DNA from: an uncultured Collinsella sp.
Lineage (GTDB): Bacteria > Actinomycetota > Coriobacteriia > Coriobacteriales > Coriobacteriaceae
Assembly: GCA_934650095.1 (NCBI GenBank)
Contig: CAKUFT010000016.1
Coordinates: 1 to 37,853 of the forward strand
Reading direction: 5' to 3'
Length of the DNA: 37,853 nt
Below, piece by piece: positions 13,678 through 17,097 of this stretch. The notes beneath the pieces were generated by a model. That model searched no databases. It was given only the letters and a program-made list of their open reading frames with translations, and was not told the DNA's origin. A program made the translations under genes and the position numbers. Each line of letters opens with the position of its first letter. Position 1 is the stretch's first letter.

Positions 13678-15153
13678 GTGTTTGATTCTCTGAGCGATCG
13701 CCTCAACGACACATTTGACCGCCTGCGCGGTAAGGGTAAGCTGACCGAGGCCGATATCACTTCGGCTATGCGCGACATTCGCATGGCGCTGCTCGAGGCC
13801 GACGTCAACTTTAAGGTCGTCAAGGAGTTCGTCGCCAAGACGAAGGAACGCTGCATGACCGCCGAGGTCATGGAGTCGCTGTCGCCGGCGCAAAACGTCG
13901 TCAAAATCGTGCTCGACGAGCTCACCGAGATGCTCGGCTCCACCGAGAGCAAGCTCGTCTTTAGCAACCGTATCCCTAACGTCATCATGCTTGTGGGCCT
14001 GCAGGGCTCCGGTAAGACTACGGCTGCCGTAAAGCTTGCCTACCTGCTCAAGAAGCAAGGCCGCTCGCCGCTGCTCGCCGCGTGCGACGTCTACCGTCCC
14101 GCCGCTGCCGACCAGCTGGCCACGCTCGGCGGCGAGATCGGCGTGCCGGTCTTCCGCGGCGATGGTGCGCACCCAGTCGACATTGCTAAGGGTGCCATCC
14201 AAGAGGCCGTCGACCACCTGCGTGATGTTGTCATCGTCGATACCGCCGGCCGTCTGCAGATCGATGAGCAGATGATGCAGGAGGCCGTCGACATCAAGAA
14301 GGCCGTCAAGCCCGACCAGGTGCTGATGGTCGTCGACGCCATGACCGGCCAGGACATCGTCAACGTCGTTTCGACCTTTGCGGAGCGCACTGACTTTGAC
14401 GGCGTGATCATCTCCAAGCTTGACGGTGACGCCCGTGGCGGTGGCGCGCTTTCGGTTCGTCAGGTGACCGGTAAGCCCATCAAGTTCGTGAGTATGGGCG
14501 AGAAGCCCGATTCGCTCGAGCCGTTCTATCCCGATCGCATGGCCAAGCGCATTCTGGGCATGGGCGACGTCGTCGGTATCATCGAGAAGGCCCAGGAAGC
14601 GGCCGATGCCGAGCAGCTCGAGGCTGCCGAACGTATGCTGCGCGAGGGCTTCACCATGAACGACATGCTCGACCAGATGAAGGCCGTCAAGAAGATGGGC
14701 GGCATGAAGGGTATCCTGGGCATGCTTCCCGGCGGTCAGCGCGCGCTCAACCAGATGGGCGGCAACCTGGACGAGGGCATCTTCGATAAGAACGAGGCCA
14801 TCATCATGTCGATGACCAAGGAGGAGCGCCTGCGTCCCTCTATCATCAACGGCCAGCGCCGTGCCCGCATTGCCAAGGGCGCCGGCGTGACCCCCACCGA
14901 GGTCAACAGCCTTATGAAGCAGTGGGGCGAGATGAACAAGATGATGGGCCGTATGCGCACGATGGCCAATCAGGCGCAGGCCGGCGGCAAGAAGGGCAAA
15001 AAGGGTAAGAAGGGCAAGAAGATGCGTATGCCCAATATCCCCGGTCTGGACGCCATAGGTCTGGGCGGCATGGGCGGCCTGGGAACGGGCAGCCCCAAGT
15101 CCGATATGGACCTGCTGCGCCAGATGGAAGCGCAGATGCGCAACAAGAAGTAA
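13678..15153 (+). CDS. ffh: Signal recognition particle protein Ffh
   Basis: Ffh binds SRP RNA and signal sequences. The 491-residue protein has the N domain, the G domain (GLQGSGKTTAAVK near 107, DTAGRLQ near 188, SKLDGDARGG) and the methionine-rich M domain (about 305-440, including MKKMGGMKGILGMLPGG). The tail is Gly/Lys-rich with repeated KKGKKGKK and then Met/Gly-rich, probably disordered and possibly RNA-binding. The GTG at 13678 lies 6 nt past AAGGAG; a GTG at 13671 would be too close. A strong hairpin follows the stop. Confidence 0.96.
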   Translation: MFDSLSDRLNDTFDRLRGKGKLTEADITSAMRDIRMALLEADVNFKVVKEFVAKTKERCMTAEVMESLSPAQNVVKIVLDELTEMLGSTESKLVFSNRIPNVIMLVGLQGSGKTTAAVKLAYLLKKQGRSPLLAACDVYRPAAADQLATLGGEIGVPVFRGDGAHPVDIAKGAIQEAVDHLRDVVIVDTAGRLQIDEQMMQEAVDIKKAVKPDQVLMVVDAMTGQDIVNVVSTFAERTDFDGVIISKLDGDARGGGALSVRQVTGKPIKFVSMGEKPDSLEPFYPDRMAKRILGMGDVVGIIEKAQEAADAEQLEAAERMLREGFTMNDMLDQMKAVKKMGGMKGILGMLPGGQRALNQMGGNLDEGIFDKNEAIIMSMTKEERLRPSIINGQRRARIAKGAGVTPTEVNSLMKQWGEMNKMMGRMRTMANQAQAGGKKGKKGKKGKKMRMPNIPGLDAIGLGGMGGLGTGSPKSDMDLLRQMEAQMRNKK

Positions 15154-15176
15154 CGGCTTGATTGAGTCGAATATGA

Positions 15177-15212
15177 CGAAGGCCGCCTGGATGGTGTTCC
15201 AGGCGGCCTTCG
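15177..15212. terminator. Strong hairpin between convergent genes
   Basis: CGAAGGCCGCCTGGA pairs perfectly with TCCAGGCGGCCTTCG over a 6-nt loop (15 bp). It lies 23 nt past the ffh stop and before the end of the minus-strand gene. No T tract follows on either strand, so it may be a poor Rho-independent terminator or a shared 3'-end stabiliser. Confidence 0.55.
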
Positions 15213-15266
15213 CCGTAGTTTGGCTTGTTGTGTGTGTTGCGCGTGTTGGCGCCGAGGTATTTGCTG

Positions 15267-16031
15267 CTAGTGACAGCCGCAGCCCTCGTGGCCCTCGTGC
15301 TCGTGATGACCGTGGCAACCGCAGGATTCGCCATGCTCATGAGTGTGCTCGTGGTCGTGACCGTGGCAGTCACAGGTGGCCTCGCCGGTCTGCGCGAGTG
15401 TGCCCGCAATGAGGGCCTCGACGCAGGCATCGCAGCTGCCCTGGGCGCCCGCATAGACCGTGATGCCGGCCTGGGTGAGCGCGTTGATGGCGCCGCCGCC
15501 GATGCCGCCGCAGATGAGTGTGTCGACGCCACCGTTGGCGAGCAGACCCGCCAAGGCGCCGTGGCCGGTGCCTCCGGTGCCCACGACCTGTTCGTTGAGC
15601 ACCTTGCCATTCTGGATGTCGTAGATCTTGAACTGCTCGCTACGGCCAAAGTGCATAAAGATGTTGCCGTTGTCGTACGTCGTTGCCACCCTCATGGCGC
15701 CGACCTCCTTTGCTGGCCATGCGGCCGTCGTTGCGGTGATGGGGGAGTACGCGATAGTGCCGCCCTCGATGACGAGCGCCCGCCCGTTGACCAGCGCGTT
15801 TGCCACCTTGCGATGTGCGCGGCTGCAGATGGTCGCCACGGTGGCGCGGGCGATGCCCATTTGCTGGGCGACAGCCTCCTGATTGAGGCCTTCCAGGTCG
15901 CACAGGCGCAGGACTTCGAGCTCATCGACCGTCATGTCAATCGCGTCTCCGCTGGCCAGGCCATCGGGGGTAAAGCCACGATATTCGGGGATGATCCCAA
16001 CGCGGCGCAGTTTTTCGCGTCTTCCTGCCAT
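15267..16031 (-). CDS. DUF134-NifX fusion protein with His/Cys-rich tail
   Basis: This 254-residue protein joins two domains. Residues 1-95 are a DUF134 domain with a sigma-region-4-like helix-turn-helix (MTVDELEVLRLCDLEGLNQE then MGIARATVATICSRAHRKVA). Residues 113-215 are a dinitrogenase iron-molybdenum cofactor (NifX/NifB C-terminal) domain, with FMHFGRSEQFKIYDI and LICGGIGGGAINAL. The tail at 220-254 has 12 His and 6 Cys in 35 residues, a likely metal-binding segment. ATG 16031 is preceded by GGAG; the frame extends further upstream without a better start. A strong internal Shine-Dalgarno precedes Met113. No nitrogenase genes are near, so a role in metal or Fe-S sensing is only inferred. 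DUF134 and NifX genes usually occur as separate neighbours. Confidence 0.85.
   Translation of the reverse strand: MAGRREKLRRVGIIPEYRGFTPDGLASGDAIDMTVDELEVLRLCDLEGLNQEAVAQQMGIARATVATICSRAHRKVANALVNGRALVIEGGTIAYSPITATTAAWPAKEVGAMRVATTYDNGNIFMHFGRSEQFKIYDIQNGKVLNEQVVGTGGTGHGALAGLLANGGVDTLICGGIGGGAINALTQAGITVYAGAQGSCDACVEALIAGTLAQTGEATCDCHGHDHEHTHEHGESCGCHGHHEHEGHEGCGCH
15693..15711 (-). promoter_or_regulatory. Internal ribosome-binding site and ATG (Met113)
   Basis: On the minus strand AAAGGAGG (15704-15711) lies 8 nt before an in-frame ATG (15693-15695). This is a stronger site than the one at the first start. Initiation here would make a 142-residue stand-alone NifX-like protein with the metal-binding tail, beginning MRVATTYDNG as free-standing NifX-family proteins do. 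Confidence 0.7.
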
Positions 16032-16045
16032 ACACACTCCAAACC

Positions 16046-16057
16046 TGACATATGTCA
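16046..16057. promoter_or_regulatory. Palindromic operator candidate, promoter-distal copy
   Basis: TGACATATGTCA is a perfect 12-bp palindrome. It lies just downstream of the predicted -10 of the DUF134-NifX gene, over the expected start of transcription, where a bound protein would repress. A near copy lies 53 bp away. Confidence 0.6.
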
Positions 16058-16062
16058 ACAAT

Positions 16063-16090
16063 AGAATAGCGCGCATGAGGAACCACGCAA
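16063..16090 (-). promoter_or_regulatory. Promoter of the DUF134-NifX gene
   Basis: On the minus strand TTGCGT (16085-16090) and TATTCT (16063-16068) are separated by 16 bp, a reasonable sigma-70-type pair. It is bracketed by two matching palindromes, which supports regulated use. Confidence 0.5.
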
Positions 16091-16097
16091 GGTATTT

Positions 16098-16111
16098 CTG
16101 GCATATGTCAG
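16098..16111. promoter_or_regulatory. Palindromic operator candidate, upstream copy
   Basis: CTGGCATATGTCAG is a 14-bp palindrome with one mismatched pair. It shares CATATGTCA and the outer TG with the copy at 16046-16057. It lies just upstream of the predicted -35 of the minus-strand promoter. Confidence 0.55.
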
Positions 16112-16178
16112 AAAAAGGCTAAGCCGCTGCGTTTGCGATTATGGGGCCATGCTGCCGTGCATTGCGTGTGCCGACCCA

Positions 16179-16214
16179 AGTGTCCAATCCGACACTGCGC
16201 GCCTGGGCTACAAT
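16179..16214 (+). promoter_or_regulatory. thyA promoter region with inverted repeat
   Basis: TACAAT at 16209-16214 is a good -10, 34 nt before the thyA ATG, but no -35 consensus is evident. The -35 zone is instead occupied by a perfect inverted repeat, AGTGTC (16179-16184) and GACACT (16191-16196) with a 6-nt spacer, which may bind a regulator. Confidence 0.4.
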
Positions 16215-16248
16215 AAAAATCGCTTATAGGCGACTGACGGGAGGGTCA

Positions 16249-17097
16249 ATGAGCAAGGCTGATCAACAGTTTGTATCCATGTGCCGCGATATTCTGGACC
16301 ATGGCACCACCACCGAGGGCCAAAAGGTCCGTCCGGTGTGGGAAGACGGCACCCCTGCCTATACCATTAAAAACTTTGGCGTTACGGCACGCTACGACCT
16401 GCGCGAGGAGTTTCCCGCGCTTACGCTGCGTCGAACGGCGCTCAAGTCCGCCATGGACGAGATCCTGTGGATCTATCAAAAGAAGTCCAATAACGTCCAT
16501 GATCTCAACAGCCATATTTGGGATGAATGGGCCGACGAGACCGGCTCCATCGGCAAGGCCTACGGGTATCAGATTGGGCAGAAGAGCCATTATGCCGAGG
16601 GCGACTTCGACCAGATGGATCGCGTGCTGTACGACCTTAAGAACACGCCGTACAGTCGCCGCATCATGACCAACACGTACGTGTTTAGTGACCTGTCCGA
16701 GATGCACCTGTATCCGTGCGCCTACAGCGTGACCTATAACGTGACGCAGCGCCCGCAGGACGATAAGCCCACGCTCAACATGATTCTCAACCAGCGCAGC
16801 CAGGACATTTTGGCCGCGAATAACTGGAACGTGTGCCAGTACGCCATCTTGCTGATGATGGTCGCGCAGTCGGTCGATATGATTCCCGGCGAGCTGCTGC
16901 ATGTGATTGCCGATGCCCACATTTACGACCGCCATGTCGACATCATCCGCGAACTTATCGAGCGTCCGCAGTTTGCGGCGCCCAAGGTAACGCTTAACCC
17001 CGATGTGCACGATTTCTACGCGTTTACGACCGACGACCTGATCGTCGAGGGCTACGAGCACGGCCCGCAGGTCAAGAACATCCCCATTGCGGTATAG
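16249..17097 (+). CDS. thyA: Thymidylate synthase ThyA
   Basis: ThyA methylates dUMP to dTMP with methylene-tetrahydrofolate, yielding dihydrofolate. The 282-residue protein shows the active-site cysteine C157 in LYPCAYSVTY, the phosphate-binding QRSQD, the WNVCQYA segment with the substrate-contacting Asn, and ADAHIYDRH. The catalytic loop differs from the E. coli type (PPCH) by having Ala after the Cys, as in some Gram-positive enzymes. ATG 16249 follows GGGAGG; an upstream ATG in frame at 16141 would read through the promoter. folA follows directly and recycles the dihydrofolate produced. Confidence 0.95.
   Translation: MSKADQQFVSMCRDILDHGTTTEGQKVRPVWEDGTPAYTIKNFGVTARYDLREEFPALTLRRTALKSAMDEILWIYQKKSNNVHDLNSHIWDEWADETGSIGKAYGYQIGQKSHYAEGDFDQMDRVLYDLKNTPYSRRIMTNTYVFSDLSEMHLYPCAYSVTYNVTQRPQDDKPTLNMILNQRSQDILAANNWNVCQYAILLMMVAQSVDMIPGELLHVIADAHIYDRHVDIIRELIERPQFAAPKVTLNPDVHDFYAFTTDDLIVEGYEHGPQVKNIPIAV

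Follow-up and report, generated by a model that had tools for sequence, protein, structure and literature searches.

We report that in fusions of a DUF134 domain with a NifX-like domain the internal start at the junction is, on the evidence of sequence comparison, selected as a start, a result that is new here. On this basis we propose that such a gene constitutes a one-gene circuit, in which an autoregulatory fusion protein and a free NifX-like domain would be made as two in-frame products, a reading to which we assign a probability of about 0.7. The gene was analyzed in the window, the whole stretch of 37,853 nucleotides from an uncultured Collinsella sp., to which all positions refer. Internal starts are reportedly the subject of work by Meydan et al. 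in 2019 and McBride et al. in 2020.

The full-length gene occupies positions 15267..16031 of the minus strand and encodes 254 residues from an ATG at 16029-16031. A reading of the letters without database searches (the sequence-only reading) had described one minus-strand frame with a DUF134 and a NifX-type domain, and profile searches bear this out, both matches passing the Pfam cut-offs. Residues 3-93 (15753..16025, minus strand) match the DUF134 helix-turn-helix domain (Pfam PF02001, E 5.7e-21, 75.3 bits, cut-off 27), and residues 121-208 (15408..15671, minus strand) match Nitro_FeMo-Co, the NifX/ORP-type domain (Pfam PF02579, E 5.1e-21, 75.2 bits, cut-off 26.3). A Sigma70_r4 match at residues 36-76 scores just over its cut-off (26.5 versus 24.1 bits), which fits with the DNA binding that the DUF134 domain would be expected to perform. 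The window protein misses the cut-offs for NifX proper (TIGR02663, 15.8 bits, cut-off 112), NifB (TIGR01290, 17.8 bits, cut-off 343.65) and MrpORP (NF041136, 72.5 bits, cut-off 450), the last match covering the Di-Nase part only, with no NTPase part matched.

In a structure model of the window protein (mean pLDDT 81.4, pTM 0.51), the DUF134 domain contains helices at residues 35-46, 51-58 and 62-82, and Met113 opens the first strand (113-120) of the NifX-like fold. By Foldseek, the fold of the C-terminal half resembles those of PH0822, TM1816, MJ0327, ORP and NifX; for DUF134 the structure search matched no solved structure. The final 35 residues (220-254; 15270..15374, minus strand) form a Cys/His-rich tail (6 Cys, 12 His), by composition a candidate metal binder, with pLDDT below 50 at residues 223-254. 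An alternative in-frame ATG at 16076, upstream of the first start, would yield a form of 269 residues; we disfavored it because the extension would cut across a palindrome (16045-16058) and because 254 residues is the length of most of the 120 listed relatives. The fusion is a solitary gene, converging with a downstream neighbor that by eye looks like ffh and diverging from a neighbor that looks like thyA. Between the fusion gene and its convergent neighbor lies an inverted repeat (15172..15217; 20-nt arms, 90% complementary) that could be a terminator.

The window is placed in the Collinsella aerofaciens group: the best 120 of 6308 protein matches are 91-98% identical, both domains are present in all 120 of these listed relatives, and one of them is named for C. 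aerofaciens. The nearest genome used was G001 (22% shared words), together with its relatives. Among 296 genomes of its class, Coriobacteriia, DUF134 gave any match in 42 and a match above cut-off in 32. The open frames that contain the 32 above-cut-off genes measure 207-314 residues, and all 32 genes run into a NifX-like domain (L246 and L247 included). Among the Coriobacteriia that have DUF134 the fusion, whose fixation the sequence-only reading had proposed to examine, is thus fixed, with one copy frameshifted. That copy, from a genome of the Collinsella genus (L085 in G162), is broken past DUF134, in the NifX-like part, and represents either a pseudogene or a sequencing error; its palindrome has one mismatch.

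Fusions also occur in Clostridia and Spirochaetes, the Spirochaete examples coming from metagenome-assembled genomes (MAGs). In the class of a Blautia, DUF134 scores above cut-off in 150 of 391 genomes and only 11 of the DUF134 matches listed lie in frames of at least 200 residues, indicating that separate genes dominate there. A query with the full-length alignment found a stop-free full-length match in 21 of 246 genomes of the Blautia order; in the Dysosmobacter order it gave a strong match in 14 of 197 and a weak one in two more, with many genomes carrying the halves side by side. The earlier statement that the two domains are usually separate neighbors is thus often true of Clostridia. Since all above-cut-off DUF134 genes of Coriobacteriia are fused and fusions are also found in Clostridia and in Spirochaete MAGs, comparison establishes that the fusion did not arise recently and is not an artefact. 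Stop-to-stop frames from 247 loci and the window comprised 149 fused, 66 DUF134-only and 76 NifX-only frames. The fused frames reduce to 114 unique sequences and to 82 clusters at 80% identity, of which 74 form group A (VTYENG type, the window's) and 8 form group B (IAVP type, treated separately). In five Collinsella genomes with intact copies (G001, G143, G168, G109 and G153), the fusion is the sole Nitro_FeMo-Co match, and a free domain could therefore arise there only from the fusion gene.

Two palindromes found by motif match lie upstream of the gene as candidate operators: a proximal one, TTGACATATGTCAG in minus-strand reading (16045..16058), and, 53 bp from it, a distal one, CTGACATATGCCAG in the same reading (16098..16111). 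Both match the pattern YTGRCATATGYCAR, for which the expectation in the window is 0.05 sites when up to one mismatch is allowed. Enough upstream DNA for a scan was available for 72 of the 74 group A representatives, and the pattern occurs at up to one mismatch within 200 nt upstream in 48 of these 72 fusions (0.03 expected from shuffles). Two or more palindromes are found in 26/72, most often spaced by 33 bp (9/26; 53 bp in the window). At separate genes the palindrome is seen in 8 of 66 cases for DUF134 and 5 of 75 for the NifX-like gene.

Genome-wide scans place the sites almost entirely at the fusion. The pattern is present in 20 of 39 Collinsella genomes scanned; 19 of the 39 carry the fusion gene, with a site at the gene in 17 and a one-mismatch site in the other two (G151, with locus L091, and G162, with the frameshifted copy), and 30 of the 31 palindrome sites in carriers are located at the fusion gene. 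Sixteen Collinsella genomes have no above-cut-off gene, two of them (G161 and G186) containing a degenerate match, and four of the 39 lay outside the DUF134 survey, one of them (G1300) with a strict site. Using the stricter pattern YTGACATATGTCAR on 28 other fusion-bearing genomes, we obtained 20 sites in 13 genomes, 18 of the 20 directly upstream of the fusion; an exact site was absent from the other 15 of the 28. The two off-fusion sites were considered as further targets and set aside as chance occurrences, one lying inside an open frame (L258) and one having no clear gene start (L260). A literature search for the string TGACATATGTCA returned, in the portions of text covered, a match only in work on E. 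coli motifs. The palindromes also lie roughly 140-200 bp upstream of the start of the thyA-like gene (by eye, at about 16249; 16045-16249) and might affect that gene too.

Because the palindromes are near-exclusive to the fusion gene in the genomes scanned, the fusion protein is probably a dedicated autoregulator. No sigma-70-like promoter, internal promoters included, was recognized in 15150-16300, and repression by the fusion protein is hence a guess from the position of the sites. The gene could also make two products with no autoregulation, the full-length protein being an activator or acting only on other promoters. The 24 of 72 fusions with no recognized palindrome would suit such an arrangement, and the TTGACA found in many upstream sites could be a plain -35 box; the sites nonetheless form palindromes, many come in pairs with favored spacings, and in the genomes scanned they are nearly confined to the fusion promoter, and we consider this alternative unlikely.

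The predicted second product, the free NifX-like domain with its tail (142 aa; 15267..15695, minus strand), is postulated from a conserved start. Its start codon would be the ATG of Met113 (15693..15695, minus strand), the first residue of strand 113-120, preceded at an 8-nt spacer by the Shine-Dalgarno (SD) sequence AAAGGAGG (15704..15711, minus strand), which is kept across the family; coordinates and spacer agree with those given by the sequence-only reading. The same reading had held this to be a better site than that of the first start, GGAG at 16037..16040 (minus strand). This is true of the window, where pairing with the anti-SD amounts to -12.5 kcal/mol at the internal start versus -5.9 kcal/mol at the first, but not in general: over 73 group A pairs, mean SD energies are about equal (internal -8.36, gene start -8.51 kcal/mol) and in 30 pairs the internal SD binds more strongly. 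Following Lys-C digestion, a short product starting at Met113 (then Arg114) would be represented by the peptide MRVATTYDNGNIFMHFGRSEQFK, whereas EVGAMRVATTYDNGNIFMHFGRSEQFK alone would speak against a short product.

Across the 74 group A representatives at 80% identity, the internal start codon is ATG in 72 (for L056 the ATG taken lies one codon before the domain edge), GTG in one and neither in one (L049), where the start codon has been lost; GTG is also found in 2 of 24 Collinsella alleles. We compared SD energies at this position with those in 300 sets of synonymous recodings that kept each protein and its codon usage. The observed mean of -8.36 kcal/mol stands against -6.30 in the recodings (z -8.5, Fisher p 1.4e-7), and none of the sets was as low. 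An SD at or below -6 kcal/mol is present in 61/74, versus 33.4 expected and a maximum of 44 in the recodings; at the same threshold, control positions in the same genes gave 9/74 at 30 nt upstream and 1/74 at 30 nt downstream, and other in-frame ATGs 47/240. The recoding test gave z -5.8 for 25 representatives at 60% identity and z -5.7 for the 47 representatives not found via the alignment query. Pairing is weaker than -6 kcal/mol in 13/74, three of the representatives (L230, L231 and L046) being weaker than their own null mean. The spacing between SD and start is most often 8 nt (41/74).

RNA structure and synonymous variation point to the same position. In 60-nt windows over the 74 genes, mean folding energy is -4.7 kcal/mol at the internal start, -14.5 at -60 and -8.9 at +60 (Wilcoxon p <1e-9 versus both flanks), and, compared with synonymous recodings, the RNA at the internal start folds less stably (mean z +1.41, t 15.4). 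Among the 24 Collinsella alleles, synonymous diversity reaches its minimum in a window that opens at codon 101 or 102, whether windows span 12, 16, 20 or 24 codons. Codons 102-116, a range picked post hoc after viewing the diversity scan, have a mean synonymous diversity of 0.018 versus 0.208 overall, and none of 20000 randomly drawn codon sets came down to this value of 0.018. In 6-codon windows the lowest begins at codon 124, followed by 107 and 108, so that the quiet stretch extends into the domain too.

Taken at the nucleotide level, as a combination of SD and start codon, the internal start is by these comparisons selected as a start; conservation of the internal SD and ATG among orthologues, which the sequence-only reading had suggested checking, holds in all but L049 of the 74, with 13/74 SDs weak. 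Since very different bacteria have retained a ribosome start site where the two domains meet, two proteins, the fusion and its NifX-like half, are probably made from the fusion gene.

Two accounts of the junction had been offered at the outset, the fusion of adjacent genes by loss of a stop codon and a dual-product gene. Comparison argues strongly for the second, and the first proves too simple. The only clade with alignable fused and split junctions belongs to the Oscillospiraceae (SH-aLRT 99). The fusion is found there in L031 and in L026, of which L027 is a near-copy, and separate genes in L061 and L068, where the two genes share an ATGA overlap and lie in different frames. AAAGGA before the start is common to fused and split forms; the two forms there consequently differ by a frame change and not by a single stop-codon change. 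Another NifX-like gene of this clade (L063), in whose locus no DUF134 was detected, is preceded by TTGACATGTGTC and TATAATG. The tree of the NifX domain (121 rows, 106 columns) intermixes fused and separate forms. Parsimony puts the number of switches in the fused state at 29, or at 7 when the count is restricted to fused and adjacent-split rows, and at least 2 are forced by starred branches (7 of 118 inner branches); rows scored as separate may have a DUF134 gene past the fetched flank. As the tree is poorly resolved, we claim no number of independent fusions.

The alignable split sisters lend some substance to the idea that the internal SD and ATG are relics of a past as separate genes, with only the full-length protein made, as might be the case where a fusion is recent. 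However, the SD and start, the weak RNA structure and the lack of synonymous variation are all retained across linkers that differ in sequence and in length (18-52 residues), and in the few alleles in which Met is replaced by Val the codon is GTG, still a usable start, so that we regard a relic as very unlikely. The conserved element could also be the protein itself, a K-G-E-like linker followed by Met-Arg being required and the SD a by-product. An SD-like core of 4-6 nt is present in 74/74, and its first G pair falls by frame in 55, 15 and 4 genes; the 55 in the main frame often read KGE or KGx, and five of the 19 in other frames (L050, L082, L106, L185 and L247) also contain KG, the frame call there depending on the core picked. 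The other 14 clearly encode different residues, such as KEV in the window, and the recoding test remains significant with amino acids fixed, which makes a protein-level motif highly improbable. Nor is much weight left for a pausing or folding signal, in which the SD-like stretch, lying exactly at the domain boundary, would slow ribosomes between the domains with no initiation, for this needs neither a start codon at the peak spacing of 8 nt (41/74), nor ATG or GTG in 73/74, nor an RNA-structure minimum at the codon.

Internal starts are found in other NifX-domain fusions as well. In group B, 6 of 8 fusions possess, within three codons of the domain start, a start codon whose pairing is at least as strong as -9, and no such start codon with SD was found near the domain start in the other two (L234 and L244). 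MrpORP, according to the parts of PMC6345978 consulted, joins a P-loop NTPase to a Di-Nase domain. Eighteen loci of this type were entered and 13 gave a boundary behind a long N-terminal partner, none being returned for L304, L307, L308, L312 and L322. At the domain edge or one codon before it, 10 of the 13 have an ATG or GTG whose pairing is at least as strong as -8, the exceptions being a weak TTG in L302 and no start in L303 and L306; the synonymous-recoding control covers group A only. Eleven of the 13 derive from the MrpORP search and two (L290 and L292, N-terminal partner unnamed) from another fetch; among the former, an internal start is present in 7/7 above cut-off (L295-L301, with L299-L301 near-copies) and 1/4 below (L305); L290 and L292 have it as well. 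A term search of the main text of PMC6345978 found no mention of internal, truncated or start codon. If MrpORP genes do likewise, a free Di-Nase domain may have been overlooked.

Two intended negative controls were abandoned. Most readable MrpORP genes themselves have an internal start, and for NifX with other partners 17 of 20 fetched regions have the NifX domain N-terminal and were unusable. In this last architecture (L275-L285, L287-L289, L291, L293 and L294) the NifX-like domain is followed by about 100 or more residues, and some of the fetched pieces stop within the frame.

Under the one-gene circuit that we favor, the full-length protein would be a DUF134 DNA-binding domain bearing a NifX/ORP-type cluster-binding domain, and its dimer would bind the paired palindromes before its own gene, setting its own expression according to the metal or metal-sulfur cluster held in the NifX-like domain. 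Ribosomes would also enter at the internal SD and ATG to produce the NifX-like domain and its Cys/His tail as a protein of 142 residues, and this free domain might serve as a carrier or buffer of clusters or metal and possibly titrate the full-length protein as a partner. Here we infer the accumulation of both proteins, the binding of DNA by DUF134, the ligand, the sense of the regulation (repression versus activation) and the role of the free domain. Binding of a metal-sulfur cluster by the NifX-like domain is suggested by analogy with the Di-Nase domain of MrpORP, as presented in the parts of PMC6345978 consulted. A more specific version, which we advance tentatively and think doubtful as a whole, is a metal-cluster homeostat: the fusion would repress its own gene via the twin palindromes, the free domain would hold the cluster and relieve repression through heterodimers with one DNA-binding half, and an internal start for the NifX domain would be general to such fusions (DUF134 of both types, A and B, and MrpORP). 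Were it true, an entire group of genes now annotated with a single protein would in fact encode two each. Among the neighbors of the fusions, rubrerythrin-type and 4Fe-4S ferredoxin lookalikes (by eye) are seen downstream of L052, L054 and L056 and on the opposite strand at L041, which hints at iron or oxidative stress; downstream of L025, two neighbors resemble by eye the halves of a chromate transporter.

For annotation, the proposed circuit means that in Coriobacteriia, Clostridia and Spirochaete MAGs gene callers give one protein where two are probably made. The conserved internal start and the dedicated palindrome pair provide a testable autoregulator role and a candidate DNA site for the little-studied DUF134, and the fusion gene would illustrate how a separate cofactor protein can survive gene fusion. 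In the literature searched (DUF134/UPF0251, NifX regulators and internal initiation), as far as the texts were covered, we found no report of a dual product for DUF134-NifX genes. The term DUF134 also catches DUF1340 to DUF1349, and PMC10434189, in the part consulted, concerns DUF1349 and not DUF134; in the part of PMC5886521 consulted, UPF0251 appears as an entry in a mutation table.

Several known systems resemble parts of this arrangement. TM1816 (1o13), PH0822 (2yx6), MJ0327 (2qtd), ORP (2wfb) and NifX (9ian) have the C-terminal domain fold in common with the window protein, but these stand-alone Nitro_FeMo-Co structures are separate chains without DUF134, and the comparison covers the domain fold. 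MrpORP genes have a C-terminal domain of the same family (Di-Nase) and here an internal SD and start at the domain edge, and differ in their N-terminal partner, a P-loop NTPase in MrpORP and DUF134 in the window. The closest parallel in expression is cas11 within cas8, as with Cas11b of Haloferax, where, in the sections of PMC11899642 consulted, one gene yields a full-length protein and its C-terminal part via an SD-like internal start; those products are CRISPR subunits with no pairing of regulator and cofactor domain, and experimental proof is reported there, whereas the case made here is comparative. Shigella VirF30 and VirF21, as described in the parts of PMC5101355 consulted, likewise show the mRNA of a regulator yielding a full and a shorter protein. 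The short VirF is reportedly made from a leaderless mRNA, whereas the fusion gene would use an SD inside the long mRNA, and the predicted short form of the fusion would be the ligand domain without the DNA-binding half.
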